The translations under genes and the position numbers were made by a program. Below the pieces are notes generated by a model. The model saw only the letters and a list, made by a program, of their open reading frames with translations. It was not told the DNA's origin and did not search any database. This document shows, piece by piece, positions 2,000-52,802 of a stretch of DNA of 64,000 nucleotides. This DNA is from Sipunculus nudus. Its lineage: Eukaryota > Annelida > Sipuncula > Golfingiida > Sipunculidae. Each line of letters begins with the position of its first letter. The stretch's first letter is position 1. The stretch spans positions 60,546,250-60,610,249 of the forward strand of contig CM049318.1 of NCBI GenBank assembly GCA_026874595.1, in the 5' to 3' direction.

Positions 2000-2129
2000 A
2001 AGCGACTCCGTGTATCCGCCTAAATCAGAGTGGAACGGGTGAAGTAAGGCATGGATTGAGTGGCAAGGGGAAATAGAGTGTTGCATATTAGCTTGGATGT
2101 CTACAGCCAAATTGTGTATGTAGGTTGCC

Positions 2130-6670: not shown

Positions 6671-6880
6671 ATCCCTGGGTTAATCATCACTGTTGAAGAC
6701 AATGACTCCTAGGTTCATCGTTGCTGTTATAGACAGGACAAATGGGTTATTCATCAGTGACATACAGGACAAATGGGTTAATCAACACTATTAAAGACAA
6801 GACTCCTGGGTTCACCAGTACTGTTATAGACAGGATCTGTGAGTTTACCAGTATCATCTGTGTGATATAGACAGGACCTC
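6671..6880. repeat. Degenerate continuation of the 33-bp array
   Basis: The blocks GACAGGATCCCTGGGTTAATC, GACAATGACTCCTAGGTT, GACAGGACAAATGGGTTA and GACAAGACTCCTGGGTTC recur about every 30-40 bp with indels. This looks like the decayed edge of the same array. Confidence 0.7.
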
Positions 6881-32100: not shown

Positions 32101-35100
32101 ATGGCTGCCTGGGTTGAATGCTCCTGGGGAGCTGAGAAAAGGTATAAATTGAACAGGCCTTAAAGACAGGGAAGGCAAAGTTTGAAGTCCAATATGATTG
32201 AAATGCGTGATAATATTTCAGGCTATAAAACCAATGTTTACCTTAACCTGATCTTTTCCATCTGTTACCACAGATCCTTAGACTGTGCCTGAATACAACT
32301 GTCACTGATACAGATCCCAAGACAGTGCCTGAACACAACTGTAGGTGATAAACCCACAGATTCTTAGACATGCCTGAACACAACTGTAGGTGATAAACCC
32401 ACAGATCCTTAGACAATGCCTGAACACAACTGTCACTGATACAGATCCCAAGACAGTGCCTGAACACAACTGTAGGTGATAAACCCACAGATACTTAGAC
32501 AGTGCCTGAACACAACTGTAGGTGATAAACCCACAGATCCTTAGACAGTGCCTGAACACAACTGTCACTGATACAGATCCTAAGATAGTGCCTGAACACA
32601 ACTGTAGGTGATAAACCCACAGATTCTTAGACAGTGCCTGAACACAACTGTAGGTGATAAACCCACAGATCCTTAGACAGTGCCTGAACACAACTGTCAC
32701 TGATACAGATCCCAAGACAGTTCCTGAACACAACTGTAGGTGATAAACCCACAGATTCTTAGACAGTGCCTGAACACAACTGTAGGTGATAAACCCACAG
32801 ATCCTTAGACAGTGCCTGAACACAACTGTCACTGATACAGACCCCAAGACAGTGCCTGAACACAACTGTAGGTGATAAACCCACATATTCTTAGACAGTG
32901 CCTGAACACAACTGTAGGTGATAAACCCACAGATCCTTAGACAGTGCCTGAACACAACTGTCACTAATACAGACCCCAAGACAGTGCCTGAACACAATTG
33001 TAGGTGATAAACCCACAGATTCTTAGACAGTGCCTGAACATAACTGTAGGTGATAAACCCACAGATCCTTAATAAGTGCCTGAACACAACTGTCACTGAT
33101 ACAGATCCCAAGACAGTTCCTGAACACAACTGTAGGTGATAAACCCACAGATTCTTAGACAGTGCCTGAACACAACTGTAGGTGATAAACCCACAGATCC
33201 TTAGACAGTGCCTGAACACAACTGTCACTGATACAGACCCCAAGACAGTGCCTGAACACAACTGTAGGTGATAAACCCACATATTCTTAGACAGTGCCTG
33301 AACACAACTGTAGGTGATAAACCCACAGATCCTTAGACAGTGCCTGAACACAACTGTCACTAATACAGACCCCAAGACAGTGCCTGAACACAATTGTAGG
33401 TGATAAACCCACAGATTCTTAGACAGTGCCTGAACACAACTGTAGGTGATAAACCCACAGATTCTTAGACAGTGCCTGAACACAACTGTAGGTGATAAAC
33501 CCACAGATCCTTAATCAGTGCCTGAACACAACTGTCACTAATACACATCCCAAGACAGTGCCTGAACACAACTGTAGGTGATAAACCCACAGATCCTTAG
33601 ACAGTGCCTGAACACAATTGTAGGTGATAAACCCGCAGATCCTTAGACAGTGCCTGAACACAACTGTAGGTGATAAACCCACAGATCTGATGACAGACAG
33701 TGCCCCAACACAACTGTAGGTGATAAACCAACAGATCCTGAGACAGTGCCTGAAGACAATTGTAGGTGATTTGCCCACAGATCTAAAGACAGAGCCTGAA
33801 AACAATTGTAGGTGAAAACCCCACAGATCCTTAGACAGTGCCTGAAAACAATTGTAGTTAAAAAACCAACAGATCCCTAGACAGTGCCTGTACACAACTG
33901 TCACTGATACAGACCCCAAGACAGTGCCTGAACACAACTGTAGGTGATAAACCCACATATTCTTAGACAGTGCCTGAACACAACTGTAGGTGATAAACCC
34001 ACAGATCCTTAGACAGTGCCTGAACACAACTGTCACTGATACAGATCCCAAGACAGTTCCTGAACACAACTGTAGGTGATAAACCCACAGATCCTTAGAC
34101 AGTGCCTGAACACAACTATCACTGATACAGACCCCAAGACAGTGCCTGAACATAACTGTAGGTGATAAACCCACAGATCCTTAGACAGTGCCTGAACATA
34201 ACTGTAGGTGATAAACCCTTAGATCCTTAGACAGTGCCTGAACACAACTGTAGGTGATAAACCCACAGATCCTTAGACAGTGCCTGAACACAACTGTAGG
34301 TGATAAACCCACAGATCCTTAGACAGTGCCTGAACACAACTGTCACTGATACAGATCCCAAGACAGTGCCTGAAGACAATTGTAGGTGATTTACCCACAG
34401 ATCTAAAGACAGAGCCTGAAAACAATTGTAGGTGAAAACCCCACAGATCCTTAGACAATGCCTGAAAACAATTGTAGTTAAAAAACCAACAGATCCCTAG
34501 ACAGTGCCTGTACACAACTGTCACTGATACAGACCCCAAGACAGTGCCTGAACACAACTGTAGGTGATAAACCCACAGATTCTTAGACAGTACCTGAACA
34601 CAACTGTAGGAGATAAACCCACAGATCTGATGACAGACAGTGCCCCAACACAACTGTAAAATTTGACCAATGTGCCTAAATGAAATAACACCCAGTTTAA
34701 ATACCATCATGACATATAGCAAATATGAAAAAGATCAGGTATTTTTCTTTCAACGCTTCACTTTGAAATAAATACCTCTTCCCCCCTCCCAGTTCTGGTT
34801 ACATGTGGGGATATAACACACAAACACACACACACACACACACACAACATGCTTACAGCTAACTTTATTTAATATCATCTTCATATAACTATAATTAGTG
34901 CTGCACTTAATAATAAGAAATGTTAATTCATCTTTCTTTATGAACAACAAAATATGGGCAGGGAAATAAAGGAGGGTGGAAAAATTACCATGTTTACTAT
35001 GGAAAAAAACCATACACTCTCAACTGTATTTCCACTAATGCATTCAGGCCAAAAAATACAGGATTTGATACAGACTTGGATACAGATATTTATAGTGTTT

Positions 35101-36066: not shown

Positions 36067-39000
36067 CAGGGAAATCTTACTTGTAAGTAGATCATAAGGT
36101 CAGAATTTACAACATAATTACTTGACCAAATTTTGTATCAAACACTGACAATTCAAATGAAAACACGAGCATGCCACAGAACACACACCCCAGATAAGTA
36201 GTGATGTCAGCTCCGATAATGTCCTAATGAGCAACTAGGAATTACTGCTGAGACTGTTCGTGAATCTTCACAACAGCTGAGCTTTTCCTATTAAGTAACC
36301 ACAATTAATAGGTCAGACTGGGACTGACTGAAACAACATGCACATGCCCAAATCAAAGCAATCCATTACAAATGCAGCTAAACATGACTGTCAATGACTA
36401 ACAGAACATGACATCCAAGATCATCAATGACTGCCAATGATGAAAAGACCATAAAAAATCAGGTTGTCAGTGACTAACAGACCATGGCAAGTATGCTGTC
36501 AAATGGCTAACATGTCATGACATATCAGGCTGTCAATGACTAACATTTCATGACAAGTCAGGCTGTCAATGACTAACAGCCACTGCTGTGAATGACTAGG
36601 ATACCAGGTCGTCAGGCTGTGAATGACTAACACAAGACAAGTGATGAGCAGATAGGATCAGCAGTCTTCCTCAATTGAATAGGTAGCATTTGAGTTAATC
36701 ATTGGAACTGTATGTATAATTTATTCTATAAGACCAAAATAGCAATAGGCCAAAGGATATAAAATATTTTCGTAAACAAAAATTTGTCAACTTCATATAA
36801 TTTCAAGGACTTAAGATAACAACACATTTGCAAAACCTCCCTCTTGTTGGACTGGTAACATGGTGGAAGAGGTGCTGCCCCCTGGGGAGTTCTGAATGAA
36901 CTGTCATATGTGAGAGAGAGTGCCCAAAACAACAGCCTGAAAGTGTATAAGATGTATACAAAGCAGCAGATAGAGTCAATTGCACTCAAGAACAGGTGAT
37001 ACTCAGTGACTATAAAATCACGCTACATTTCTTTGGTGCACATTACAGTTTTGTACATGCTTATAACTCAATAACAATTTCAAACAAAATCGTTAAATTC
37101 TATATTGTACAGGTGCTTACACAAGCTAGCTATATAAACAGCACAAAATACAAAGTAAATATAACATTAATATTGTCAAAACTGAGGTAAGACTGAGTGT
37201 TTCATTTAAAGCAAGTAGCTCAGTGTAACTAATATAATTTATTTTTTTCTCAGGTGTGCGTGCTCATTTAAAATGTTCCACACTTCATACATGCTACTAT
37301 CAGACATTACTGTTGACATTAAACCTATTCAGATTCATGTTTCCATATTTGGCACGACAGTGACAACAATAGTAATTCAACTGTTTTTTTTTTGCTGTTC
37401 AAACCATTCTACTTAAACTTTCTTTCTCAAGAGATGGAGGCTGTTTTTAATTAAAGTATGAATTCAAAATTCAGAAGAGTAAAAGAAATTTTATTTAAAA
37501 AGTCTCAATAAAATAAGATAAAATAAAATAAAAAAATATATTTTAAAATAAATTCAAATTCCACATGGGCAATCAAAGTAAACTTGGCCTTAAATGAAAC
37601 CACTTGTAGGTATATAAGTGTACGTAAGGTAGGTAATAAGGATAAACTCTCGGCATGCGAACCACAACAACAGGATGTAGCCGAGAACCTACCTGTACCT
37701 GAACTTTGACCCCAGAGAGAAAAAGTAACGTTTGGCTGGCGGCGTTGGGACATGCAGTCTGAAGAAAGTGTGATGTTCGACACACGATTTCCACAGGTTT
37801 TTACAGGATCTGTAGCTTATCATGTTAAAGCCTATAAGGTTGTCTACATTGTCGTTCTGCAAAAAAAAAAAAATAACAAATAAATGTCACATTGATGTAT
37901 AAGCTCCCCTGATTTTTTTTATTTTGACCTGAATTAAGAGATTATTTAATTTAATTTTTCTGTTTATAACTTTGCTAAAAAACATTTTTTTTTTTAAATA
38001 ATCTTTAAGGATAGGTCCATGGCCTGTTACAGCACTGTCTATTCTATTAGAACAAAAGAAACAATACAAGAATGAAGGGTTATTATTAAGACTTCTGGAT
38101 TTCAGGCTTTATATACACAGGGTAAGGAATAATCCAGAAGTCATAACCCGCCATTAAGACATTAGTTTGATTCTCCCAGGTTCTATGAAGATTTTTTTCT
38201 TAGGCACCAATAGATCTGATGACTTTCAGCTACGAAGTCCAACTCTTTAAAGGTGCCCATTCACCTACTTTTGAAAAATTATTTATGTGGTTTCTGATTT
38301 CCTCTGTGTATATATTAATGTTCTAAGGGTAATTTTTGTTATGAAACGTTCTTATAAGGCCTTCGTGAAGGATGTATGAACTTGTTTATCTACAACATGT
38401 ATGTAAATACAGCAAAGTTGACAAACAGGAAAAAAAGTAACCTAAGGTGGTAGGTTGCATATATGCGGAGGTAGAAATTTCACTTGTTGCAAAATGCCAT
38501 TTGCAAAGCACTGGCTAATCTGACTTGCTGCCAGATGCCATTGTAGAAATTGTTTTGATTAATTGGCAGGCCCTCACATATTATAAACATGTCGATATAA
38601 TCAAAACAAGCAGCCTGTGTGCAGTGATATCCACGTTTTCTGGCCTATTTTTTATAAAAGCTCCAATGGATTACCTTTAGTTTATAAAGGTCAGATAGGT
38701 GACTGGACCACTTTAACCACCAGGCTACATTCCACCCCTACTTTTCTCAAAAAGTGATGAAAAGGATAGGGTAACACTGAAGAAAGAACCAGTTATAATA
38801 ATCTTATTTATTTTACATGGGTTGTACAATCAGCTGTAACTAATACAAAGCACTCTCCATGGCTCAGATGGTGGCGTTTGGTAGTCTGTAGAGGTGGAGT
38901 TAATCGGAGGACCCAGAGAAAACCACCAACCCTATATGGACCGCCACAACCCACTCTCATGACAACTCAAGAGATCAAACCCAGTCGCCAGTGGAGAGAG

Positions 39001-42000
39001 CCAAGCATTTCACCACTGACCGTCCCGAAAAGAACCAGTTAAATTTTGGAACTGGGTGAAAGTTGGTAGTGTACATATACAACTTCCTCAATATGGTTTT
39101 AGAATAAAACAAATTTTTATCATTGTTCTGGTTATATATTGCACATTAACTCTCACCAATTCTCTCCTGAGCTGAATAAAGAACTGCTTCCTCTTGAATG
39201 AGATTTTCACAATTTTTGCCCTAAAAGAAAAAGAGAAGGTATTTACTCTGAAAATGTCTTGATAATATAAATTTAAGCTATGAAAATGAATATGACAGGT
39301 CTTAAGATAACATTCATATTTTGTTTTTACCAATTACATTGAAACATAGCTCGTGCAGTGAGCTGTGCTAAATTCACTGATCTTCCTAGTTTAGTGGAAA
39401 AAATCTGCAATTAACTATAATCATAAAATAAATACAATCATATTTACAGAAACAGGAAATAATTCAAATTACTGCAGCACAGAATGGAACTACATGAATT
39501 AAGAGTATTTACTAAATGAATAAATGCTCACCATGAGAACGTGTTTATTCGAACACCATTTTGAAATACTACAAGCCCCGCAGATGTGACCCCTAGCTGA
39601 ATGTCAAGGTTGCTCTGATCCTGTGACAAAAATAAAGTATAAATATAAATCAAGTATAGCAAACAAGTATAAAAGATAATCTTAAGTTTCTCAAACCAGT
39701 GTCATCCAAATTACAACTACAATCCTTATGCAGCGCTTATACACTTTGTTTGCCTTTTGCTTAACCCTTGCTTGCTTTAGCAGGGTTTGCTTGGTTTCAC
39801 CACCACACAACAGGCATAGGACCAAGAATGTTAACAGACCAATGAGAGCAGGGCATCTCATTGTGCATCCAACTCCAAAACCTGTGATAACCCACTCTCA
39901 TTGGTCCAGATCCTTTCTTGGCTCTGTCACATGCTGCCTGGTGGTGAAACCCAGCAAATCCTCTTTAAGCGAACAGAAATTGAATGAAGGAAGAATGCAG
40001 CATATAACCATGGTGTAAAGGCTATTAATATAAGAACAATTCAGTTCACAGGAATCCAAGTCATTTTCTGCCAACAGAATTCAAGAAACTGCCCATTTAA
40101 CTCTCTCCTGGTATAAAATTGTTTTAATTATAACAAGAGCACCACAAACGTGCATAATACACCCGTCATATCTGGTGACCTCTGACCTCATTAAATATGC
40201 GTGAATTTTTATGAGAAGGTAAGTCAGGTGAAAAACCTCTATTGGTAAATAAGTATAACGAGTTTCATGAAAATCCTTAGGATTTTTGGTAAGTCACAAA
40301 GGTGCATCCAAAATTCCGTGACCTCTGACCTCATTAAATATGCATGGATTTTGCTGGAAATCAAACTTAGGCTAGATATTTTATTGATTAACATTTATGA
40401 TGAGTTTTATCAAAATCCTTTATATTCTTTTTACAAGTTATCACGGCAACCACAAAGAAGCCTAGTGACCTGTGACCTTATTAAATATGTGTGGATGTTG
40501 CTCATAATCAAACTTGGGCGAGATAATCTGTTGGTTAGCAGTCATGGTGATTTTCGTGAAAATCCATCAAAGCCCTGGTAAGTTATCGCGCTGACACTAA
40601 AAGTTAACAGACAGACGGACGGTGGGTATACCATACTGAACTATGCTACCATCCATATACAATTGTAGTTTTTGTATAAAAATGTATTGTCATGAACAAT
40701 AATCCTGTTTTCAGGTCAAGTTAATATAAACACATAGACAGTATTTACACTGCATACACACTAATAGAAAGCAATGTCAACACCCTATCTGGGAGAGAAT
40801 CAATTAACCACAGTCTTTCTGAGTTAATTACAGGCAATAAGGACATAAATTGAAATTAAAGGTTTATCATTCTACCTGATGCCTAGAACAAGGAAGTCAG
40901 ACATATAACAGTCATGTTCACCTGTGTCTGTTCATGGTTAACAATTTCAAACTTCATATTATTCAACAGGTATACAAAAGAATGGTTCACTTCATTTATT
41001 GCTGACCACTCAGCATTTTTTCTTTAGGCTTGTTGTGGCAGTGTTTATGACAGGATAACAGCCCACATAGTTCTTTGCAACAGTTAACATGTGGGCACGG
41101 ATATTTCCAGGCTGCCATCAATTAAAGCATGTGGGCTTGTGGGGGAAAATAAGTCATTCTTATCATCTGCATCATATTAAGAATCCATTCTTTAAGCCCA
41201 CATCTTCTTTTTCAATAGATTCTATACATGTTTATAATGTACATAATCATCACATGGTTGTTTACTGAATGGTTAAGCAACATACTACGATACAATAACA
41301 TTTATATTTCATATTATAAACTCTCATTAGTTATTTCAGGAATATTAAGAAAAATTGATTTCCTGCATCACTGCCAATTTATGATATTTGCACAAAGTAA
41401 TGTAAGACACCTTCACTGTAAAACCATTTTTCTTTCAGTGATGGGTCTTAAATGAGATATCTCATAACACAATATATATATATATATACAATGGCTGGCT
41501 TCATATTTGCATTTGATCTATATATTCACAGTTTAATTTCCACAATCTTACCATAAGTAACCAACAGAGTGTATCCATTATTAAATTAAATATTTAATAA
41601 GTAAGCATAATTTTAGAAATATAACAAGATAATGTATAAGATTTTATATAAAAGAAATCTCAATCAGTTATCTTTAACTAACAGATACAGTTAAATCTAT
41701 TTGATAATAAATATAACACTGATACAGTTACATATGATATTTAATTATACATATATTAAACATGTTATTTGTAATATTCGTCTTTTCCCTTTTGATACTA
41801 CAGGTATTGATAGCATAAGATGACAATGGGAATATAATATAAATGACTGAAGCTCTGTGTACGAGGGCATTTACTAAAGATTTTATCTTCAATTTCCCTT
41901 TTCAAGAATAACACAAACATGAAACACTCGAAAACATATAGCCAACAACAGTTAACTACTGAACTTCAATATCTCAGCAAGTAATTACTGAAACAACCAC

Positions 42001-45000
42001 TGTCACTATTTGGTTGATGGAAATTTTACCAACAATATGGCCATCATTATATCATAGTGATGATGCATCATTCATATAATATAACAATATGGTAATTATG
42101 TAGTTTTTTCATGCAGTAATGTTAGTATCAGATGGTTACTGGCAGTAAGTTAGGTGAGTAAACAAATTAGTATAATCAGTGCACAGAATGCATCTACAGA
42201 TTAAATTATCTGGTTATAAATACAACAGGCATAGCATGATTCAATTGATTCAAATGAATTTAATCAATTAAATTTGTGTGCTAAGCAGCTTGTAAATCTT
42301 GAAAATATTCAGTATGTGTCATATATAACAGTACACATCTTGCAACTGAAAACAATTCATAGCATTATACACTGATACTAAATATTTAACACTATATATT
42401 TAACACAATATTCCAACTATTCACAGTACGAATGCACAGACTGTAATTTAAACTATCACTGACATAATATTATCTAGTTATTACAGTCCATACCATTGCC
42501 TATGTCCACATGTATTTTTTATGATCTCCATCCTTTTTTTACCAGGGTATATACATCTATTCCTCAATAAATTTCAAGGACTTCAGAAGAAAACTTTAAA
42601 AAGTCCCAGTTTTACAAATTGATGGGATCTTCATCAAATTCTGATGCCATGGTCACACCTAAGTTGTAAGAAACCTTAAACTTTTCATAGAAAATACACA
42701 ATATCTGACAAGGTACATATGGAAGGAACTGTAACACAGAAGCTAGCTCTGCTTATAGACTATTCAAGGGTTTAAAAGGAAAGAGCACTCTTTTATAGGA
42801 ACTTCAAGGCTCTTAAATTATTAGTTTTAATTAAAACACTTTCAAGGTTTTCCAAGGACCTGCATGTGCACATTCTGTTTTATAAAGTACATGTAACAAT
42901 TTCTGGTCCAATGGTTGCAAGAGATATTCCATTCCTTGTCTGTGGGAAAAATGCTTTATGTTGCACTGAATCTATTGGGAGAAATGATGATTGAAATATG
43001 ATGTTTCCACTGTTTGCAATGAGTTTATGATGTCAGAAATGGGAAACAAACTTTGGTTATTCAATTTATTTCAATGCAAAATATAATAAATAACTTTTGT
43101 TATGCCACTATTATTTTGCAAAGTCTTAATGATCTGTACTGTCCAGTTTTCCTGGAAACATATCCCCAACATAAACAACCCAAGTCACAATGTAAATACT
43201 TCCATTTCATATCATAAAAATTTACATAAATTCAGCAGAGTATGTGCATTCATACTACGATTTTTATTTTTACAAACTTGTATAAATACATGTGGACTCT
43301 GGTATTCTTTCTATCCATTCTGTTAAGGCATGGACTGTCATCAAAACTATCACTGTTATGAAAAGGACACTAGTTATTACCTAAGATTACACATCAACAA
43401 AATACTAATACACCAGAATAGACCATGCATACAATAATTTATGAAATAAAGGAAAGCTTTCAGATTTTGGACATCCATCATAAAGAAGTGGGAACATGCA
43501 GAACAAAAAATATAAGTTAACAACTAGTATGTTCAACCAGTAGGTCCCTATTGAAATTTGGGAATATTTTCACCAATTGACAGTTTCTAAAAATTAAGCT
43601 GTTATGAATATGAAGTTAAGGCCCAGGCATAATTAACCAAAAATTAAACCAAAACAATACCTAGCAAAATATTTGAGTAATTAAATAAAATCAATATATG
43701 AGAAAACAGTCTAGTTTTACAGCATCGCAACCATACTGAGGAAGGCAAAGGTCACTGGTCACATGCTCAAACAACTACATATAACAGCCTGTTGATTGGC
43801 TGTTTAGCAGCATAAATATCCTTAAAGTGAGGCTGGAAACCCAGGAGAGATGCCATTATACTTGTCCACAAGATTCAGATGAATCAGAAGGTTGCAAAAA
43901 ATTAATATTGGATTTTGTTATGAAGTTCACACCTCATGTTAGACCTCTAGTCCCTCTTCAGCTTCAGTTCAAAATGTTTGATAATATGTTAATTTAAGAG
44001 AATGATTGAGAATTATGGGAAATACTGGTTGAACAGACAATAAACATTGGATATCACTTTGACCAGGGTTTGAAATCTTTCAATTAATTACAGGCCACAC
44101 CTTGGTCTTATAGTATGCATCTCCCAGGCCCTGGCAAATGGATCAGTTGATATTAGTTCTCTTTCATACAGGTGTGAAACCTTTAGGTTAGAAACCTACC
44201 TGCTGAATATGATCTGTTAATTGCACACTAATGGTTTATACCCCCAGACAAATGATCACACTGGAATTATCTAATGAATTACATTTTTCTGAATTCCTGA
44301 CAAACCTCCCACCAGAGGATTAGAATAACTCTCTTTGACACAATGTTTCATCCCTGTGTGTCAGTACAGTAGGTCATCAGCAGTTAGGCCCCTCCAAAAA
44401 TGAAACAGTTCTATGATATCGCCATTTCTATAATTTTTGCTGATCAACATTGTTTTTAGTGAAGGATTTTTGCAATCCTTCAGGTGTGGCCTGTTATTAC
44501 TATAAATGGAATAAATTATTTTTTTTAAATTCAGCTTTCTGTAGAATGCACCCTGCTAGACTTCACAAACGGTTCATGTGGAGAGAAGTTTTCCTATTTC
44601 CCCTTTGGTTAACAAACCTTACCTACCAGACTCAGGTTAACGAACCTTACCTACCAAAGAAGATGTACAAACACAATCACCAAAACGAGGGTCACCACGC
44701 ACAGGATTAGTTTGGTCACGGTGCAATGTCAGTCCACCACACAGCACAAGGGGCAGGGTGGGGTTGTTAATATGCATACACAAGATGCTTACCCTTACCC
44801 TAGCGGGGTGTAAATCCACGCCGTACATTTCCAACCTCCGTGCCTTGTCCAGGTAATTGTATTCTGCATCGGCCGGCGTCTGCCCTCTGAAAATACAGGC
44901 CTGTTAAGCAGAGGCTGCAGCAGTCAAAGAATCAATGCTGTACAGACATGACCAGGCTCGGATTAGCCAGGAAGCAGTCAGCTAGCAGTTCTGTACACGA

Positions 45001-48000
45001 CAGTGGCCAATTAGTCACCACCTACCTGTCAGTGTTACCTGTATTGCAGGGCTCATTATCACAAGACAAGTTACAACTGATATATCATCCCTGGTTTGAT
45101 TATTAATTATACCTTAGGTAGGTGGTATTGTTTTAAGCAGTGTTGGTTTGTATGTGACTAACTATACTCTCAAAGTTCAGAACAAATTTTGGGGATATTT
45201 TCTGGATGGCTTGGCTTAAGATCCAAAAAAGGATCCATTTAATTTTGGATTTCACATAATCTGGATCGCCTTAGTATGTTTTTGTTTATAGGTCTTACCA
45301 CAGAAAGAATTTTCATTGGCAATTTGTACATAGCAGCCAAAGATGAGACTATCATCTTTAACCATTATTCAGGGAAATCAAATTAACTCAATTTAACTTC
45401 TGGATAAACTGTTTCTATTTTTGAATAGATAAGGGAAAGTTAATTTTCTCTGCACAGCTGACCACAAGCAGAATACTATAAGATCATGTATTTACAAAGA
45501 AATCAGCATATTTTCAAATGCCATTCATGTTTTAGCAGATTCCTTGTTCATCATGTCAGATTTGGAAATGGCAGCAAGGCAGTCTTATTGTATGTACAGA
45601 AGTAGTGCACTGAATCAAGGTCATTCTGTCCTCTGTAGCACATAGTCTCTGAAGCACATGATCTGCGTAGCATTTAATCTTGGTAACACATAATCTCTGT
45701 AGCACATGATCTCCTTAGCGTTAGGGCTATAACGATACATCAACAAACAGATACACTGTGATACAAAGCTAAATATCACACTGGTATCATCAAATATCAC
45801 TGTATGGATGCATTTATAATATTTGCTCATCAGATGGTGACACCTGACATTTATTTTAATAAGAGTGTCTTAATATCACATGGGGCATGTCAGTGAAATG
45901 TACAGCATATTTGCTAATGGTTATCCAATTTAACAAAAGTTTAAAGCAGCATTTTCAGAATCATTCCTGAACTATACTGAACAATGAATTTTATTTATGT
46001 TTTGGAGATGAATTTTCAATGAAGCTTGGTTATCTACACTCAAGGAAGAACATTAGCTTGGAATGTAAATTAAAATATATCTTACAATAACAAGGTATCT
46101 CCATAAATATCACACTCTGAGCTAATGTATTTTTACAGCCCTTTATCCTACATACAACTGAAAATATCAATATATACAGACAATCCTGCAAGCCAGCCAG
46201 TTTTTTGTATGTATGCAAAGCAGAACCAAGGCTTCAGAATCCTCACCCTGGGTCGTGCTGACTTGAATATATGAGCACCGTACATATCCAAAAAACGGGC
46301 TTTTTGCAGAAATGCAAACTCAGCGTCAGATGGTCTGTACCCCCTGAGTAGGAAACGTAGAACATGAGAGACACTGACAATGGTTCTCTGCTGATATAAA
46401 ACATTTTGTGAACTGATATTCAAAACATTTCGTGAACTCATTATTTTGTGGTTTTGTCTTTAAAATACAGTGGTCACAATACATTTGTTCTAGTTTCCTT
46501 CCTCTTAACCACTGCTTTGCTGGATATTGCTGCAGGGAAGTTGGCACAGGTCAAAGAATGTTCCAATCAATGTAACTGTAGTTTTGCCTGGCATCAGTAA
46601 AACCTGCAATACTTAGCTCCCATTGGTCAGAACATTCTGGGCTCCGTGCCAGCTTCCCTGGCGGCAATAACTAGCAAACAGTGCAAAAGAAAGCAGTGAG
46701 AATGAGTTCTAGAACAATTGAAGTGTGATCACTGCATAAGAAATGTATCTTCAAAATGTCTCTGAAAAGTATAAAACTGGCAAAAATGGGAGGCCCTCAT
46801 TAACAAGGGGTGTTTCCCTAGATAATCATAAGTTTTTTATGCAGTGACACTTTGGAGGAATTAAAATGTATTACACATGACTTTGAGATGGTGCTGTAAA
46901 TTGAAGGCAGTTCAGTAACTGAATCTATGCACTTTCAGATAAATGGGTTGGGTTCCAAGTTCATGAATTTTGATATCACCAAATTTCATGAAGTTTAAAT
47001 CACCCAAAATAAACATTTCCACGAGGCAAGGCTTTTGGTTGGATTGCAGTGTGTTAGTAAGATTATGCAAATTTTAAAACTAATATTGATGGAAGTTTGT
47101 AAATATGGAGGAATGGGACATGGTGAAGGGAAAGGAACTTTGGTGCAGAATGGGGAAAAGATGTGGATGAGGTGGTATGGTTTTGTCCTTGCGGAGGTAT
47201 GTGTGCTCTACTGAGGGCCCTCTAGTTTTGAATAGTACCACTCATTGAAAATGTCACATTAAGCATAAGACAGCATACAGATAAAAGCTCCAACTAATAC
47301 TGAATGGCATGTCCTGTCACCCAACTTTGCTTCAAAATGACTCTATATTACAAGGATTACATTTTTGTTAGGTCATTATGGATACACCCATAACAATGTG
47401 GTTTTGTGTGGCTGCTGTGGTTGGCACAGAAATACATCATAGCACAAACCACTCGATGTGGTCCAAAATACCAACACTGTCCCCACCACGGTCTCCACAT
47501 GCCTGAAAATAGATGACCCAAACTGCTTACTTAATGCTGCTTTTCCGGATGATATTTTTTTTTTCTTGGTTTTTAACATTCATGAACTGATATAATCACT
47601 GCAGTGTTTCTGGAATTTATTCAATTTGGCCAGACATGCTAGCAGGTTTTTAACCTTATTCATGAGCAAATTTAATGGACTTTTCAATGAATTATAAACA
47701 TCAGTTCTATACTTTTCAAAGCTGTTCTTCACATATTTCTGTTCATATTTCTGTCAGTGCACTGATCAGGCACTCCAACTGCTTCACATTATACTGACTC
47801 TATATCATTTTGAGATCTCAAAGATGATGAAGGCGTTTTTCTAGCTCAGATGCCGTTATAATCTCAACAGGGGTAGATGTATCCTAAGTCCAAAAAGAAC
47901 CAACTAAAAGCTTTATTTGTAAATGCCAAAATTTTCAGCCATGCACTTATGTAGGAATAAAAATTTGGTGACAGATTCCAACTGCTTCAAAATTCAAGGA

Positions 48001-51000
48001 GTCTGAAGATCCCAATAGACAGGTTTAATTTTCAAGGATTCCAATGCTTTAAAATGCCATTTTTAAAAATTCTAGCACTTTCAAGCTTGTCAAAGACCCA
48101 TATGAACCAAACGTGCAATTTCAGGACTCATTCCTAGTGCAAATCAAGTTACTAATCTTACCGATGTTTCTCATGTAAATCCATCACCTCTCTCTCAAAC
48201 TCCTCTGTCTGACTTGGAATAAAGCGGAACTCGGATAAATAACCATTGGCATGCTCTTCTGGATTGTAATCACCCAGCTCAGCTGAAATACACAAAGTAT
48301 AACAATCATGACTGGCCTGATAAATTGAATGACACATAAGAACAGGTATATTAAATTCCTATTTCAGAAACCTAACTTTAATCAGTCAATGCCTAAACAA
48401 TTTCTTTGGCATCCTCTTATCAGTCTGATGGGTCTGACCATAAGTACAAGATTAAAAAAAATATATTTTTTAAGGTGGAGTTATTCATCTCAATTTTTTT
48501 TGCTTACTAAGCTTTACCTGTATGTACATCTGCAGTATTCCATATCGATTTGGGACTGCATGACAAGGGGATAGTACACAGCTCCTCACATTTATATTCT
48601 AATTACACCAAACAATAGCAATTACCGCACCTTTGGGTCCTGGATGTGTAATCAACCCAACTGCTGGGTCATAACACTGAGGAACTCCCCTAAGTCGCAC
48701 ATGTTGGTGGTTGATACCCACCGCTCCCATAAAGAACACAGAGCACTCACCCTGGGTGGTCACCCACCTTGAAAAAATTTCACTGGTCCTCACCTGAGAT
48801 TCTAACTTTACCAGGAGATTCTAATTTTCCCAGGATCTCCCAGCGAGTACAGTGCTCTATCCAATGACCACACAAACCATTGTATGAGAGAGTGAGAATG
48901 ATACCATCATACTTACACTGGACTGCCAAGCTGGCAAGGAGCGCTGCTGTACTTCGTGGACACATTAGTCGACCTTCTAGGATATCTCTCTTCAGTTGAA
49001 GAAAGAAATGGTATCTGATAAAATATAACAACCATGTGATGAACATATTTCTCTTCTGAGTTCCTGGAAATCTTTCCTTGCATACAAAGCAGTGTACATT
49101 AATAAGATTAAGAGAAACCCTTACCAAACATGAACTGTACCCTAAAATGTAACAAGGGGCCTGAATATTTTCATATTCCAAAGAACATAAAGCATCACAA
49201 AACTGACACTTTATATCAGACAGATTATTCTTGTACTGAAAACACAGGAACATTGTTAATTCCAACTGAAACAATCCTTAATTTGTCAACCTATTTGAGT
49301 GTTTTCATGTGATGCACAATATGTGAGAAGATCTTGTATTGAATCATTCCAAGCTGTGCTCCAAATTACTCTGCAAATTCCTCACTACAGAAGTTTGATA
49401 TTGTCTTCTCTCTTGTTGTTACACCAGTTAAAACAGATTGTGTTGTAAAAATTACAAAAAAAAATGCTTCTATTACTTTTCTGACTTTTGCACGAACCCA
49501 AGATAATTTAAAATATTCTTTACACTACAGTGCATCATGCATTTTTCTTGTTCTGTTTTAAGCAAATTTGGCTGAATACAATGTGACTGGAAAAAAGGAA
49601 AATGGACAAAGGTGAATGTAATTAAACCCTTCTCTTACCTAGTGTATTCTTCTTGTAACTTGCTTGGATCCGAAACATAGAACTTAACCCGAAAATATAG
49701 TACATATGGTGGTCCTAGAAAACAGAAAACTTTTAAGTATAAGGGTTTTAAACAGTCATAATGTATCAATATGGTTTTATTCAGACCATGTACCCTTTGT
49801 TACTATATTTGATCTGTTTTGCATATTTTATCATTTAAAGTTTATAAAGAGGGGAGGTTCATACCAAGGTAATCCCTATAGTAAGTTGCTTTACAATGTT
49901 TACAGAATCACTGGTAATATACTGAAATGCATATCATTATTTAACACTGTTTTTTGTTTGATTCACTTCATATCTAAATTTAAACAAATTCTGAACAAAT
50001 ATGTATCTTATTTCACAACTTATCAGTTGATGATTGGGCATTTCTGACATAATAAAAGACAGGTAGAGGTGAAAAGTAACAAGACTTATTTTGGTCAAAT
50101 TCCTAACAAACAGGATAGCCCATGTATCTTCAGGTAATTAAAAGTTGCGTCTTACTGTATATGCACTGTATAACTTACTCAAAATACCAAAAAAAAAACA
50201 CTGCAATAGTAAGGAACACACAGTAAACAATATTATTTACAAACCTTTTACTTGCTTCTTGAGTGCTTTCAAAGGATCAAGCCATCTCTGTAACAAAGTA
50301 AACATTACATCTTCCATCTTAATCATTTAGTCTCTACATTAAATTTGTAACATTAATTGATACCACATATTCCTTGGAAAGTATCGTTTTCCAGTTTGCA
50401 GCAGTTGAAAAATATATGTTTCGTATCTATATTCCATTACAAGAATTGTTATTAATTTTTTTCCCAATAATATCCAAAATTTCATTTTGCATACTTTCAT
50501 ACAAAGTCAATTAATACATGATGGAAATGACCTGATTTTTCTATTAAGGGAAAGCACATAAAAGAAACCGTAAAGCTCTCAAAGACAACATATGTGTCTC
50601 TGCCAATATTACCAGGACCCTTATCAAAGTTTTATATGTGGCACATAAGCACAAACAACTGAGCGACCACCCCCCCCCCCCCCCCAAATTCATTAAAATC
50701 TGTCCATATCTTGAATATGTAAAGTAGCAAACAGACACCAACCAATAGTGACAAAAATAGTGGATGTATAATAATATCCCAAGAAACATGAGACGGAGTC
50801 AATTCATGGTGACAAAAAAAAGAATGGCAAAAAAACAAAACTGGGTTAATGAGATGGCTCTACCAGAACATAATGACATAATGAGGTTGCCCAACTGATT
50901 TTTTTTTATTTCTCTGCAAATTCTAGGTGTGTCAGATCATTCAACTGATGTTCTGGTTGTTTAACACAAGAATATTTATGCTATTTATGGTTTAACTCAA

Positions 51001-52802
51001 AATTACTGACTACAGCATACTGACTGAAAAATTAATGAAATGTAATATACATACCATAACATCTGTATTTGGCACAACTGTGGCAGGCTGAAATAGAAAG
51101 CAGAGAATACACCCTTTATAAATGTTTTAAAATTTGATTCTTGCATTCAGTTTTATGTAAACCTATTCCAGTCTTCAATGAGTACAGATTTATATAAAAG
51201 ATAAGGAACTAAAGGAATATAATGAGAAACTTCATGACAAGAATCAACATTTATATTTTACAGACTTATATGTCCTCTGGGTCAACTGCTGCTGGTTTTT
51301 GGAAATCATAATGCCAATTAATGAAAATATTTCAACTGAATCATTTATCAACTGGTAAAATCATAGAGTATTCCAAAATTAATTCACAATAAACAAATTT
51401 TAGACTTCTGAGGTAAAATCATCTTGAGTGACTTGAGTTTTGAAAATGTCTTTCTCCAAAGCAGTTATTTTGAAAATGATTAAAACATGTATTTAATTAC
51501 TAATCTAACTCACCATAGTATCAAGAGCTGGTCCAACATCTGCATACTGTAAACCAAAGTAATCCTTCTCCACAAGTTCAAGATGATCAAATACTTTGTC
51601 CAGTAATATCTGACCCTTGGCCCGCTTCTGTAAATATACAGTAAACAGAACAGTCAAATACTTTTTCAAGTAATATCTGACTCTAAACCCATTTTCTAAA
51701 CATCTGCAAACATTGCAGTCAAATACTTTATCAAATAATATCTGTAATATCAGACCCTGCTTCTGTAAACATCTTTAAGACACAATACAGATGATTATCT
51801 AAAATAAGTTCAACATAAAAATAAACATATGTAATTTATTTCATAAAATTATGAAACTTGTTGCTTTAAATTAAAATGTACATTCAATATAATCTATGAA
51901 TGAAATTTAGTTATACATATGCACAAACATTTCCTAGGTTTGACCAGGTTATACTTATACCAACATTGAATAAGATGCTGAAACAATCAAAACCTAGTTT
52001 AGAAGAAGCAACTAGGTCACAGCACAAGTGTAACTGCTTGGTAAGGCATGTTTTTTTTTTTGTTCTGTTTTTCTTTTACAGTAGATACATTTGCAGAGTT
52101 CCATTTCAGTTTTGGACTGTGTGACAAGGCGGTAGCACCACTATCTCCCATGTTATTTTGTATCCTGGTGTTACCCTGGCCCAGCGTCTGCCACACCTTT
52201 AAGTCCTGGGGGTGTAATCAGCCTGATTGCTGGGCCATTACACCAAGGAACCCCCTATAAAACACACTTGTCTGGGAGTGATGACGGCTGTGGGGCACAG
52301 CCTTCCCATTAAGCCTGCAGAGCACTCACCAGGGTGGGGCCAACAGTGAAAAATCTCAGGGCTCCTCAGGTGAGATTTGAACTCATGACCTCCGAACTTT
52401 GAACCTTGTGCTCTACCTCATGGCTGCAGAGGCTGATGGTCAGCATGTTGTCACATTGTTTGATTTATAAAAAGTACGCCTGCTTTGGTGCTATATCTGG
52501 TCAGCATGTTGTCACATTGATTTATCAAAAGTACGCCTGCTTTGGTGCTATATCATAGATTACCTTGTGAATTAATTTACCTGTATTGCCTTCAAACGTT
52601 TTGTGTGTGCTAGAGATCAAACAGAAGGGATTTAAGAGTGTTTTGTATAAGGAAGAATACTCACATCCACTTCAAAGCTGCATTCTGTGTCATCTAGGAA
52701 ATGGATGACACATTTGATTGTTTTGACGGTGGTCTTGTCCCTGGCTAACTCAGAAGCTCTCACATTGTACGTCCCGCTCGAGACCCCGAGCTTCACAGAC
52801 AT
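18603..52802 (-). CDS. PTPN4: PTPN3/PTPN4-like FERM tyrosine phosphatase, N-terminal half (gene span, 3' part outside window)
   Basis: Family role (known): cytosolic, membrane-associated protein tyrosine phosphatase with FERM, FA, PDZ and PTP domains in that order, acting at the cell cortex and at neuronal contacts. Seen here: coding segments 52802-52665, 51627-51514, 51087-51055, 50287-50245, 49714-49639, 49014-48917, 48282-48162, then either 46343-46247 or 44886-44799, then 39620-39532, 39220-39157, 37856-37693, 29981-29913, 23582-23256, 18801-18603. All junctions keep frame with GT..AG. The isoform using 44886-44799 totals 1623 nt (541 aa). F1 is about residues 25-112, F2 118-236, F3 237-325, FA 335-380, linker 380-541. 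Diagnostic strings are [48 protein letters not shown] and GSKFRYSGRTE, which match vertebrate PTPN4 better than protein 4.1, FARP or FRMD proteins. PDZ and PTP are not seen. Vertebrate PTPN3 and PTPN4 are paralogues, so the symbol stands for the shared invertebrate orthologue. Confidence 0.9.
18865..19070. mobile_element. Foldback (MITE-like) element, shortened copy
   Basis: GTGGTTGTACATTGCAGTCA, TTCCAGATCT, CACCAGGGGTGCGGCACAG and a rightward arm AATCTTGCTATAG ... GCAGCAGTTAAAACAGAATG. It is the same family as the 30722-31062 copy but lacks the central part. Confidence 0.65.
19071..20073. other. Intron sequence, includes an 18-G run
   Basis: G run at 19767-19784 after CATTTT. Otherwise no coding or repeat signal recognised. 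Confidence 0.55.
20074..20170. repeat. Compound microsatellite (TA)n-(GATA)n
   Basis: TA repeats interrupted by a GAT at about 20098, then a GATA run from about 20146. Confidence 0.95.
20959..21744. mobile_element. TIR element of the AGGGCTGTAACGATAC family, copy 1, with an expanded core
   Basis: The left end AGGGTTGTACTTGTAACGATAC and right end GTATCATTACAGCCCT are inverted. Two further copies (31085-31504 and 45723-46142) are each 420 bp; this one is longer because of the 43-bp array. The ends resemble widespread hAT-type non-autonomous elements; no clear 8-bp duplication was found. Confidence 0.7.
20990..21385 (+). repeat. 43-bp tandem array, about 9 copies, inside a TIR element
   Basis: TACAAAGCCAAATATTGTAT recurs at 21004, 21047, 21090, 21133, 21176, about 21219, 21260, 21303 and 21346 (spacing 43, one of 41). 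Confidence 0.93.
21850..22095. mobile_element. Foldback element, diverged copy
   Basis: The left arm ACTGGTGCAGGGGCAATTAT / CCAACTAATGAGAAC and right arm TTATTGGTTGGGCCATTCTT / GGCCCTCTGCCA are inverted. The family core is GGCACAGGGCCAAGAATGT...CCAATGAGAG. Confidence 0.7.
22370..22565. repeat. Family D repeat fragment
   Basis: GGTATGATAAGAATAACATG ... TTTTATATGCACAGG, parallel to 9320-9400. Confidence 0.55.
22740..22985 (+). repeat. 40-bp degenerate tandem repeat, about 6 copies
   Basis: The unit GATATCTTAGCCAAATATCA then AGAGGCAAACCTGCTG occurs at 22744, 22784, 22824, 22862, 22903 and 22941. Confidence 0.85.
22986..23255. other. Intron side of the exon 14 donor, no feature seen
   Basis: No repeat or coding signal recognised. 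Confidence 0.5.
23256..23582 (-). CDS. PTPN4: PTPN3/4-like exon 14: end of FA and Asn/Ser/Arg-rich linker
   Basis: 327 nt, the longest exon here; acceptor TCTGTGGTTGCAG, donor GTAAGT. It starts [17 protein letters not shown] and continues as a polar, low-complexity, presumably disordered stretch (residues 367-474) with YRN and NSxx repeats. SPSKRYARR also resembles EPB41L5/Yurt, but the F3 exons favour PTPN3/4. It is the linker between FA and the expected PDZ domain. Confidence 0.88.
23583..25734. other. Intron between exons 13 and 14, right-proximal part
   Basis: AT-rich; no coding exon recognised. A cassette exon too diverged to recognise cannot be excluded. Confidence 0.5.
25735..26329. 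mobile_element. TIR element, 595 bp (non-autonomous)
   Basis: The left end CAGACCTTGGGGGGCAATTC and the reverse complement of the right end, CAGACCTGGGAGCAATTCTG, match at 17 of 20 positions. The interior is filled with degenerate CAATTCCAATTCAA-type sequence. The terminal CAG hints at a hAT- or CACTA-like origin; no convincing target duplication was seen. Confidence 0.65.
26330..28110. other. Intron sequence without recognised feature
   Basis: AT-rich; no coding or clear repeat signal. Confidence 0.5.
28125..28365. mobile_element. Foldback element, degraded copy
   Basis: GCCACTGGGGTGTTGGCAAA and GGGCCAAGATAA on the left, with CTTGTGCCAGGACCCTGGAA on the right, are inverted; arms are decayed compared with 39700-40020. 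Confidence 0.55.
28366..29299. other. Intron sequence without recognised feature
   Basis: A short piece (28860-28890, CTGCATGACCTTTGACCTC) resembles part of repeat G and 20870-20890. Nothing else recognised. Confidence 0.45.
29300..29640. mobile_element. Foldback element next to exon 13
   Basis: GGTTGGCACAGGGCCAAGAA then CCAATGAGAGCATGG on the left, and CTCATTGGCTGGAACATTCT then TGGCTCGGTGCCAAG on the right, form long inverted arms. Confidence 0.75.
29913..29981 (-). CDS. PTPN4: PTPN3/4-like exon 13: FERM-adjacent segment
   Basis: 69 nt, acceptor CTCTTGTTTCAG, donor GTTTGT. It encodes [20 protein letters not shown] plus FT. With the flanking exons it reads FRYSGRTEYQ ... RTFTRSPSKR, the FA layout of PTPN3/4 (FRYCGRTE ... 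FARSPSK), rich in basic residues and possible Ser/Thr phosphorylation sites. Confidence 0.92.
30722..31062. mobile_element. Foldback element, best-preserved copy (about 340 bp)
   Basis: The left arm TGCAGTGGTTATACGTTACA, CACCAGGGCTGGCACAGGG is mirrored on the right by CCTGTGTCAGCCCTGGAGGT, TTGCTATATAAAGCAGCGGT and AACTGCAGTATA. The copy is palindromic over almost all its length. Confidence 0.8.
31085..31504. mobile_element. TIR element of the AGGGCTGTAACGATAC family, copy 2 (420 bp)
   Basis: The left end AGAGCTGTAACAAATCATTG and right end AATGTATCGTTACAGCCCT are inverted. The single interior GATACAAAGTCAAGTATTGT corresponds to one unit of the 43-bp array of copy 1. Confidence 0.75.
31505..31917. 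other. Intron sequence, no feature seen
   Basis: AT-rich, nothing recognised. Confidence 0.5.
31918..32162 (+). mobile_element. tRNA-derived SINE, family C
   Basis: Plus-strand tRNA-like head: GATGGTTCTAAGGGCACTTG, ACTGCAAGGTTGTGGG, B-box-like GGTGAAATCC. The body includes CACAAGGGT-TTCC and CTGCCTGGGTTGAATGCTCC. A more diverged relative is at 55678-55905 (CCACAAGGGTGTGCCT, CAGCTGCCAAGGGACCT). Confidence 0.65.
32268..34657. repeat. Higher-order minisatellite of 46/46/40-bp units in the intron between exons 12 and 13
   Basis: The 46-bp unit TGCCTGAACACAACTGTAGG / TGATAAACCCACAGATCCTT / AGACAG occurs in pairs. It alternates with a 40-bp unit in which TGTCACTGATACAGATCCCA / AGACAG follows the same start. 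The trio is 132 bp, and a larger period of 396 bp is visible from shared variants (ACATATTC at 32882 and 33278; TTCCTGAACA at 32721 and 33117). Since 132 is divisible by 3, long minus-strand frames stay open (up to 400 codons). These are repeat products. Confidence 0.96.
34658..36005. other. Intron sequence with a (CA)n run
   Basis: (CA)n at 34817-34849. No exon recognised. Confidence 0.55.
36006..36066. repeat. Compound microsatellite (AT)n-(GT)n
   Basis: AT repeats interrupted by AA, then eight or nine GT units. Confidence 0.95.
36390..36645 (+). repeat. Degenerate tandem repeat, about 33-40-bp units
   Basis: GTCAATGACTAACA-CATGACA-GTCAGGCT recurs about seven times with variable length (36392 to 36632). 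Confidence 0.8.
36646..37692. other. Intron side of the exon 12 donor, no feature seen
   Basis: AT-rich, with A-rich runs at 37500-37560. Nothing coding. Confidence 0.5.
37693..37856 (-). CDS. PTPN4: PTPN3/4-like exon 12: end of F3 and start of FA
   Basis: 164 nt, acceptor TTTTTTTTGCAG, donor GTAGGT. It encodes 54 residues (289-342). They include [20 protein letters not shown] and VEHHTFFRL (the terminal F3 helix), a short TPPAKRY linker and LGSKFRY, which opens the FERM-adjacent segment. Ser343 is split with exon 13. Confidence 0.95.
38010..38210. repeat. Family D repeat fragment
   Basis: GGTCCATGGCCTGTTACAGC, GGCTTTATATACACAGGGTA, GGAATAATCCAGAAG; related to 10296-10470 and 22370-22565. 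Confidence 0.6.
38255..38700 (+). repeat. Dispersed repeat E, copy 2
   Basis: Same orientation as 8025-8415. Shared strings include ATATGCGGAGGTAGAAATTT (versus ATGTGCAGAAGCTGAAAGGT), CACTTGTTGCAAAA and TCTGACTTGCTGCCAGATG. Confidence 0.75.
38850..39012 (-). mobile_element. tRNA-derived SINE, family B (minus)
   Basis: Its reverse complement reads GTGGTGAAATGCTTGGCTCT, CCACTGGCGACTGGGTTTGA, TCATGAGAGTGGGTTGTGGC, the same element as 56205-56490. It ends about 150 bp before exon 11. Confidence 0.75.
39157..39220 (-). CDS. PTPN4: PTPN3/4-like exon 11: F3 lobe core strand
   Basis: 64 nt, acceptor TTTTTCTTTTAG, donor GTGAGA, exit phase 0. It encodes [20 protein letters not shown] plus L (residues 268-288). 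[15 protein letters not shown] is nearly identical to PTPN4 and is the best single discriminator from 4.1, Yurt and FARP proteins. Confidence 0.95.
39532..39620 (-). CDS. PTPN4: PTPN3/4-like exon 10: start of F3 (PH/PTB-like) lobe
   Basis: 89 nt, acceptor TTTTTGTCACAG, donor GTGAGC. It encodes [20 protein letters not shown] then NGVRINTFS and two bases of Trp267. DQSN..I.IGV.S.G..... NRVR.NTF is the same order as in PTPN4. A foldback repeat starts about 80 bp upstream of the acceptor. Confidence 0.93.
39700..40020. mobile_element. Foldback element beside exon 10
   Basis: The left arm (CAGGGTTTGCTTGGTTTCAC, CACAACAGGCATAGGACCAA, CCAATGAGAGCAGGG) and right arm (ACTCTCATTGGTCCAGATCC, TTGGCTCTGTCACATGC, CTGGTGGTGAAACCCAGCAA) are inverted. 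Confidence 0.78.
40128..40660 (+). repeat. Dispersed repeat G, copy 3 (longest)
   Basis: Three internal blocks of GACCTCTGACCTCATTAAAT (or GACCTGTGACCTTATTAAAT) each followed by ATGCGTG/ATGCATG/ATGTGTG. It ends ACAGACAGACGGACGGTGGG and TATACCATACTGAAC. Confidence 0.8.
40661..44600. other. 3.9 kb of intron between exons 9b and 10, no recognised exon
   Basis: AT-rich with a short (AT)n at 41472-41488. I looked for further FERM-like exons and saw none. Confidence 0.55.
44615..44656 (-). promoter_or_regulatory. Two tandem donor-like decoys beyond exon 9b
   Basis: Reverse complement TGGTAGGTAAGGTT occurs twice with a 27-28-bp period (44615-44628, 44643-44656), 143-184 nt downstream of the exon 9b donor. 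Each contains GTAGGT and GTAAGG. They may act as decoys or as U1-binding enhancer sites; this is an inference from position and sequence only. Confidence 0.35.
44799..44886 (-). CDS. PTPN4: PTPN3/4-like exon 9b: canonical end-of-F2 exon
   Basis: 88 nt, acceptor CCTGTATTTTCAG, donor GTAAGG. It encodes [20 protein letters not shown] then YGVDLHPAR (residues 209-237 of the 541-aa isoform), ending in phase 0. PADAE.NYL..AR.LE.YGV matches vertebrate PTPN4 and other FERM domains closely, so this looks like the ancestral copy. Two splice-donor-like decoys (revcomp TGGTAGGTAAGGTT) lie 143-184 nt beyond its donor. Confidence 0.92.
44887..45722. other. Intron between exons 9a and 9b, left part
   Basis: No further exon copy recognised. 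It ends in an 18-bp tandem repeat at 45625-45720 (CTCTGTAGCACATGATCT-like, about 5 copies). Confidence 0.55.
45723..46142. mobile_element. TIR element of the AGGGCTGTAACGATAC family, copy 3 (420 bp)
   Basis: The left end AGGGCTATAACGATACATCA and right end AATGTATTTTTACAGCCCT are inverted. Interior GTGATACAAAGCTAAATATC is one unit of the 43-bp array seen in copy 1. It sits between the two alternative exons, about 100 bp downstream of the exon 9a donor. Confidence 0.75.
46247..46343 (-). CDS. PTPN4: PTPN3/4-like exon 9a: alternative end-of-F2 exon
   Basis: 97 nt, acceptor CGTTTCCTACTCAG, donor GTGAGG, entry phase 2 and exit phase 0, the same phases as exon 9b. It encodes [20 protein letters not shown] then [12 protein letters not shown] (32 codons after the split Arg). 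It is homologous to exon 9b (shared G..P.DAE...L.KAR.L.MYG, about half identical) and 3 codons longer. Splicing it between exons 8 and 10 keeps frame. It is more diverged from the vertebrate sequence than 9b, so it may be a specialised variant. A decaying duplicate is less likely, given intact splice sites, frame and motif. Confidence 0.8.
46455..46745. mobile_element. Foldback element upstream of exon 9a
   Basis: GCAGGGAAGTTGGCACAGGT, CAAAGAATGTTCCAATCAAT on the left, and CATTGGTCAGAACATTCTGG, GCTCCGTGCCAGCTTCCCTG on the right, are inverted. Confidence 0.75.
46746..48161. other. Intron between exons 8 and 9a, no feature seen
   Basis: AT-rich; no coding signal recognised. Confidence 0.5.
48162..48282 (-). 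CDS. PTPN4: PTPN3/4-like exon 8: F2 lobe
   Basis: 121 nt, acceptor GTATTTCAG, donor GTAAGA. It encodes [20 protein letters not shown] and then [19 protein letters not shown] (residues 169-207), with split codons Ser168 and Arg208. ELGDY and FRFIPSQ are hallmark F2 motifs. It ends CG| (phase 2), which matches the first base of either alternative exon 9. Confidence 0.94.
48494..48873 (-). mobile_element. tRNA-derived SINE, family A, next to the exon 7 donor
   Basis: Minus-strand head TGGTCATTGGATAGAGCACT near 48873, then CTGCTGGGTCATAACAC-type body in reverse, ending in a plus-strand T-run at about 48494. A local duplication TTAGAATCTCCTGGTAAAGT/TTAGAATCTC lies within the head. Confidence 0.78.
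48917..49014 (-). CDS. PTPN4: PTPN3/4-like exon 7: F2 lobe helices
   Basis: 98 nt, acceptor TTTTATCAG, donor GTAAGT. It encodes [19 protein letters not shown] and then [13 protein letters not shown] (residues 136-167). This is the F2 (acyl-CoA-binding-like) helix pair typical of FERM domains. The donor lies about 40 bp from the tRNA-like head of a SINE at 48494-48873. Confidence 0.94.
49015..49638. other. Intron between exons 6 and 7
   Basis: No repeat or exon recognised. Confidence 0.55.
49639..49714 (-). CDS. PTPN4: PTPN3/4-like exon 6: F1-F2 junction
   Basis: 76 nt, acceptor TTTTCTAG, donor GTAAGA. It encodes [20 protein letters not shown] and then QEEYT, with split codons at both ends (Gly110, Arg135). 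[10 protein letters not shown] matches the FRVKFFVSDP-type string of PTPN4, and QEEYTR starts the first F2 helix. Confidence 0.92.
49715..50244. other. Intron between exons 5 and 6
   Basis: AT-rich; a 113-codon plus-strand frame here is opposite to the gene and has no recognisable domain. Confidence 0.55.
50245..50287 (-). CDS. PTPN4: PTPN3/4-like exon 5: end of F1 ([14 protein letters not shown])
   Basis: 43 nt, acceptor TTTGTTACAG, donor GTTTGT. Residues 96-109 plus the first base of Gly110. WLDP followed by a basic KKQVK stretch is the standard end of the F1 lobe in FERM proteins. Confidence 0.9.
50288..51054. other. Intron between exons 4 and 5, includes a 16-C run
   Basis: C run at 50670-50685. 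Nothing else recognised. Confidence 0.55.
51055..51087 (-). CDS. PTPN4: PTPN3/4-like exon 4: 33-nt in-frame microexon in an F1 loop
   Basis: Eleven codons ([11 protein letters not shown]), phase 0 on both sides, acceptor TTCTATTTCAG and donor GTATGT. Its product adds 11 residues between YFGLQYAD and RWLDP, where vertebrate PTPN3/4 have only about 7 residues. Skipping it keeps the frame, so it can behave as a cassette exon. It is supported by good splice sites and by the flanking exons fitting either way; whether it is always included is unknown. Confidence 0.72.
51088..51513. other. Intron between exons 3 and 4
   Basis: AT-rich, no feature seen. Confidence 0.5.
51514..51627 (-). CDS. PTPN4: PTPN3/4-like exon 3: FERM F1 lobe
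   Basis: 38 codons, phase 0 at both ends (residues 47-84). Acceptor TTTACAG, donor GTGAGT. It carries the FERM F1 signature [20 protein letters not shown] followed by YFGLQYAD. The last residues (VGPALDTM) lie in a loop that varies among FERM proteins. Confidence 0.93.
51628..52050. other. Intron between exons 2 and 3, exon 3-proximal part
   Basis: 51655-51775 holds two diverged copies of exon-edge-like sequence (TCAAATACTTT-TCAA-TAATATCTG), resembling the 51588-51612 stretch of exon 3. It is a local tandem duplication of the exon start without coding potential. Confidence 0.55.
52051..52432 (-). mobile_element. tRNA-derived SINE, family A, most complete copy
   Basis: Minus-strand head: AGCCATGAGGTAGAGCACAA (A-box region), then GAGTTCAAATCTCACC (B-box region). 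The body covers the SINE core and ends at a plus-strand T-run (52051-52061). Confidence 0.85.
52436..52562 (+). repeat. Tandem duplication, about 60-bp unit
   Basis: GGTCAGCATGTTGTCACATT ... AAAAGTACGCCTGCTTTGGT GCTATATC occurs twice in a row, directly abutting the SINE head. Confidence 0.93.

Follow-up and report, generated by a model that had tools for sequence, protein, structure and literature searches.

The 64,000-nucleotide (nt) stretch of the Sipunculus nudus genome analysed here (assembly GCA_026874595.1, contig CM049318.1, positions 60,546,250 to 60,610,249), hereafter called the window, carries on its minus strand part of a gene of the PTPN3/4 type in which two adjacent homologous exons, 9a (46247-46343) and 9b (44799-44886), are probably used as alternatives. 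Positions are those of the window. The gene model was built from tblastn matches of human PTPN4 and 4.1R, followed by splice-site reading, and has ten coding exons besides 9a and 9b, running from 52802 down to 29913 and all joining in frame. The first coding exon (52665-52802) is followed by two FERM_N exons (51514-51627 and 50245-50287), an exon at the FERM_N/FERM_M junction (49639-49714), a FERM_M exon (48917-49014) and exon 8 (48162-48282), which lies upstream of the pair, encodes part of the F2 lobe of the FERM domain, ends DLHEKH(R) and leaves two nt of a split Arg codon. Downstream of the pair are exon 10 (39532-39620), where Pfam FERM_C starts, a further FERM_C exon (39157-39220), an exon with the end of FERM_C and the start of FA (37693-37856), and an FA exon (29913-29981). 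In addition to the model itself, homology to PTPN3 identifies the first exon and exon 8, and Pfam matches identify the others apart from 50245-50287. Downstream of FA, two minus-strand open stretches (23662-23252 and 18815-18456) encode Ser/Pro-rich peptides and may be linker exons belonging to this gene.

Spliced through to 29913, the exons encode 354 residues with 9b and 357 residues with 9a, and Pfam FERM_N, FERM_M, FERM_C and FA all score above cut-off in both versions. Among solved structures in the PDB, the best match of the model protein was human PTPN3 (E 2.4e-99, 336 bits, from residue 11), with band 4.1-like protein 3 a close second (325 bits, from residue 27). The stretch ahead of the FERM domain aligns to PTPN3, and the protein has the N-terminus, FERM domain and FA region of the PTPN3/4 type. 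An earlier note on this DNA had called the gene a PTPN3/4-type phosphatase. For the FERM and FA half this assignment held, but no PDZ or PTP match was found in the window: nothing past residue 362 of human PTPN4 was matched at E up to 1. The label phosphatase is therefore based on the resemblance of the FERM half to this family, and the PDZ and PTP exons probably lie beyond the edge of the window.

Exons 9a (97 nt) and 9b (88 nt) stand in tandem between exon 8 and exon 10, separated by a 1360-nt intron (44887-46246) in which a degenerate tandem array of 16-nt units lies at 45631-45713. Each exon has the third base of the split Arg codon as its first nucleotide and ends at a codon boundary, and the two share entry and exit phases. 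Exon 9a opens with GGGG after an acceptor ending in CTACTCAG and closes with AGG before the donor GTGAGG, and exon 9b opens with AGGG after an acceptor ending in TATTTTCAG and closes with AGG before the donor GTAAGG. Tandem donors, GTAAGGGTAAGC, follow 9b (44798-44787); use of the second GT (GTAAGC), 6 nt downstream, would add Val-Arg before DQSN. Since both lengths are 1 mod 3, either exon alone joins exon 8 to exon 10 in frame, whereas inclusion of both or of neither shifts the frame; translation then stops at the end of 9b or about nine codons into exon 10, respectively. An arrangement in which only one exon at a time is productive is what mutually exclusive exons would be expected to show, and the early stops suggest that transcripts with both exons or with neither are probably degraded by mRNA decay. 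Unproductive double inclusion or skipping is common but not universal among mutually exclusive tandem exons. Direct reading of the minus strand and the spliced model agreed with the earlier note in the coordinates, strand, phases, splice dinucleotides and peptides of the two exons and in their in-frame joining.

The peptides of 9a and 9b are identical at 13 of 26 ungapped residues, and a tblastn search of the window with the 9b peptide found 9a at E 4.6e-6 (13/25 identical). We also searched the six-frame translation of all 64 kb, in pieces of at least 15 residues, with a profile of six family segments (9b, PTPN3, 4.1-like 3, 4.1R, FARP1 and FARP2). The piece containing 9a was found at E 2e-7 and the next piece at E 0.11, so that the profile search gave no clear exon-9 copy in the window further to 9a and 9b. 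The homology proposed for the two exons is thus well founded, as is the proposed closeness of 9b to PTPN4, since 9b matched human PTPN4 at E 2.1e-7 compared to 0.068 for 9a. When searched alone against the PDB, the 9b peptide matched FARP1 and band 4.1-like 3 best and PTPN3 only at E 0.6, and the 9a peptide reached E 0.48. The FERM_M score of the model protein was 103.7 bits with 9a and 112.2 bits with 9b. At the level of sequence, 9b is the conserved version and 9a the more diverged copy. A recent duplication with matching flanks was rejected, as blastn of 700 nt, exon and 600 nt gave only short matches that were out of register (best E 0.006). When the peptides of 12 exons were searched against the window by tblastn, no other exon had a convincing copy; apart from 9a and 9b, the lowest non-self E was 0.052 (the 39220-39157 peptide against the 49014-48917 exon), followed by 0.12 and 0.15. 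Just before the exon at 51627-51514, at 51679-51653, the intron encodes QILLEKVFD, which is identical to part of that exon at eight of nine residues (E 0.15).

In both versions the Pfam FERM_M match stops at residue 223, and FERM_C starts with the first residue of exon 10, which is residue 227 in the 9b form and 230 in the 9a form. These limits place exon 9 over the C-terminal part of F2 and the F2-F3 junction, in agreement with the location at the end of F2 that had been proposed. Going by known FERM structures, we take the segment to comprise the last helix of F2 and the first strand of F3. Exon 9a is longer by three residues, which phmmer puts within its last six; the exact placement differs slightly between alignments to 4.1-like 3 and to 4.1R. 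There are six K/R and three D/E in 9a compared to four K/R and five D/E in 9b, which changes the charge of the segment from -1 (9b) to +3 (9a). According to one study (PMC2602985), the localisation of PTPN3/4 to the membrane of T cells requires their FERM domains, and such domains can bind PIP2. Judging from its sequence, the 9a swap could alter the binding of the membrane or of a partner.

Across the 26 ungapped codons, 33 of 78 sites differ between 9a and 9b, with 8, 7 and 18 differences at codon positions 1, 2 and 3, and synonymous (pS) and nonsynonymous (pN) differences of 0.82 and 0.32. The excess at third positions (18/26 compared to 15/52 at positions 1 and 2; Fisher P 0.0008) shows constraint on at least one copy. 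To assess 9a separately, we simulated two branches, with 9b at omega 0.05 and 9a free, from two alternative ancestors, keeping the runs with 30-36 differences and counting as successes those with an open frame and at least 13 identical residues. A neutral 9a succeeded in 2.7% of 5490 runs, or in 2.3% of 5414 with the other ancestor, and in 0.11-0.13% when at least 18 third-position changes were also required. In contrast, success rose to 37% or 30% with 9a at omega 0.3, and to 88% or 83% at omega 0.1. These simulations make lifelong neutrality of 9a unlikely. The statistics support an old divergence of the two exons, with synonymous differences near saturation, under constraint at the protein level.

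The earlier note had also described the splice sites as good. AG and GT are present on both exons, but the scores are mixed and depend on the matrix. With a generic matrix, ranked among the 7368 AG and 7373 GT sites of the window, the 9a acceptor was in the top 0.87% and the 9a donor in the top 0.58%, while the 9b acceptor was only in the top 16.94%. With a small matrix trained on the nine other acceptors of the gene, the 9b acceptor was in the top 8.28% and the 9a acceptor in the top 41.8%. On the minus strand between 52664 and 29982, the sole interval of 60-150 nt and length 1 mod 3 with both generic scores at least those of 9a is 9a itself, and it is open; as a control, the plus strand gave 0. 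This search is a count of rarity and not an exon finder, because the thresholds were taken from 9a and just one of the ten other exons that were scored at both sites, 37856-37693, reaches them.

Known devices that prevent the use of both exons of a pair at once include a very short intron, mixed spliceosomes and competing RNA pairing, and they are not required in every case. Here both exons are GT-AG, and the intron, at 1360 nt, exceeds the lengths at which steric exclusion is known to act in other genes. A search for pairings of at least 16 nt with a seed of 11 in 39600-48200 (8.6 kb), which misses shorter pairings, gave 11 inverted pairs. In one of them (43266-43288 with 47084-47106, 83% of 23 nt) the arms flank the exon pair, and their pairing would loop out 9a and 9b together; the DNA here is AT-rich and the match looks like chance. 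Rfam gave 0 matches at gathering scores in the 64 kb. Exclusivity may rest on frame-coupled decay plus further factors. The intron after 9b also contains a 54-nt element present three times at 40175-40518, with spacings of 143 and 147 nt.

Tandem repeats occur elsewhere in the window. A minisatellite at 4554-6680 has about 64 copies of 33-nt units. As the unit length is divisible by 3, several frames are open on each strand, and the long open reading frames there reflect the repeats and are not evidence of a gene. An array at 32268-34658 has 46-nt and 132-nt units, with about 18 copies of the longer one and minus-strand open reading frames of 402 and 221 codons; it sits in the intron that separates exon 37856-37693 from exon 29981-29913. 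A 280-nt unit is repeated seven times in tandem at 2085-4043.

Our preferred explanation, to which we give a probability of roughly 0.78, is a tandem exon duplication in the FERM part of an animal PTPN3/4-type gene that produced two mutually exclusive alternative exons, and on this basis the membrane-binding domain of the protein probably exists in two forms. A tandem duplication within the FERM-coding part would have left adjacent homologous exons with identical phases, and 9a and 9b would each be used in different cells or stages. Exon 9b would then give the conserved FERM domain, and 9a a domain with an altered last F2 helix and an F2-F3 junction that is three residues longer and more basic. 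The 9a form might have a shifted affinity for acidic membrane lipids or for the tail of a partner, and might thereby direct the phosphatase to another site of action.

Several observations weigh against this explanation. The exon pair is known from the sequence of one genome, from which the use of 9a in mRNA is inferred, and a search for relatives with the 9b protein as query in genome_contigs (53 pattern matches) and viral_contigs (3), which are not collections of animal genomes, returned none. None of eight splicing-factor motifs was enriched in the four 300-nt flanks (lowest P 0.103), and the pairing search gave no convincing docking pairing in the 8.6 kb. By itself, the codon-position excess establishes constraint on at least one copy, not on both. 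Identity between 9a and 9b is not significantly higher in columns conserved across the family (8/13 compared to 5/13, P 0.22; 9/15 compared to 4/11, P 0.21, when conserved columns are defined without 9b), and 9a alters five of the 13 conserved columns, including the V and H of YGVxxH. The 9a acceptor is poor by the gene's own matrix, with a leave-one-out score of -1.64 compared to 5.79 for 9b and 3.36 to 14.75 for the others. Finally, on a less strict simulation grid, a neutral 9a was open with pN no higher than observed in 57% of cases at 20 mutations per branch and in 10% at 40.

Some of these points would also be expected if 9a, though still intact in appearance, were a relic of the duplication undergoing decay, with only 9b in use, which we consider unlikely. 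The greater divergence of 9a in its FERM_M score and in its PDB and PTPN4 matches, the change of the conserved V and H, and an acceptor that fits poorly with those of the rest of the gene all agree with a relic, and a recent loss of use is compatible with data from a single genome. Young neutral ages fit as well if the high synonymous divergence is disregarded; when pS of at least 0.7 was also asked on the less strict grid, a neutral 9a succeeded in at most 4.5% of cases. The frame of 9a is open, however, and its sites are good by the generic matrix. Synonymous change is near saturation and yet half of the residues are kept, which a neutral 9a achieves in only about 2-3% of simulations of like divergence. 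A still less probable explanation is that 9a is a poison exon, used mainly by joint inclusion with 9b, which would shift the frame and lower the protein level by mRNA decay. The stop reached at the end of 9b when both are included is what such an exon would produce, but a poison exon need not encode a homologous peptide that is open in the same frame and constrained at the protein level, and the codon-position pattern speaks against it. Chance resemblance, although only about 26 residues align ungapped, is rejected as negligible by the window-wide E values (2e-7 with the profile and 4.6e-6 with tblastn) together with the same phases and the same place in the gene.

A wider reading can also be put forward, which we regard as tentative and on present evidence rather doubtful. 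The pair could be an old, lineage-wide feature of invertebrate PTPN3/4 genes, acting as a splice-controlled switch at the F2-F3 junction of the FERM domain, with 9b giving the usual FERM domain and 9a a version, more basic and with a longer first F3 loop, that guides the same phosphatase to another membrane or receptor, a task that vertebrates would have split between PTPN3 and PTPN4. If both exons are used, they would provide a natural experiment in which one helix and loop are exchanged at the F2-F3 junction and the rest of the protein is identical. It would reveal which surface of a PTPN3/4-type FERM domain selects the membrane or partner, and also how a single invertebrate gene might acquire what gene duplication gave to vertebrates.

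To our knowledge, vertebrate PTPN3 and PTPN4 have no such exon pair. The gene resembles these and fly Ptpmeg in having FERM plus FA and an N-terminal stretch alignable to PTPN3, and differs from them in that an alternative FERM exon of this kind was not found for them in the open-licence literature. In that literature, including the available parts of PMC9741552, PMC2933243, PMC5703972, PMC2602985 and PMC4138107, no report of an alternative FERM exon in PTPN3/4 was found, and the main text of PMC9741552 contains no word that starts with PTPN, FERM or EPB41. Isoforms of this kind may already be present in annotated animal genomes. According to PMC9741552, mutually exclusive tandem exons comprise 236 human events and occur in 154 fly genes, and identity within known pairs can be low, as in Cacophony (16/39 residues). 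The pair described here is like those in having adjacent homologous exons that give proteins differing in one homologous segment, and unlike them in being known from genome sequence alone. The duplicated-exon splicing of oyster AOX (PMC5589949) and the oyster-specific exons of Fgfr (PMC5703972) are likewise lineage-specific alternative exons, in different genes. The principle of mutually exclusive tandem exons is thus well known, and the PTPN3/4 example may be new.

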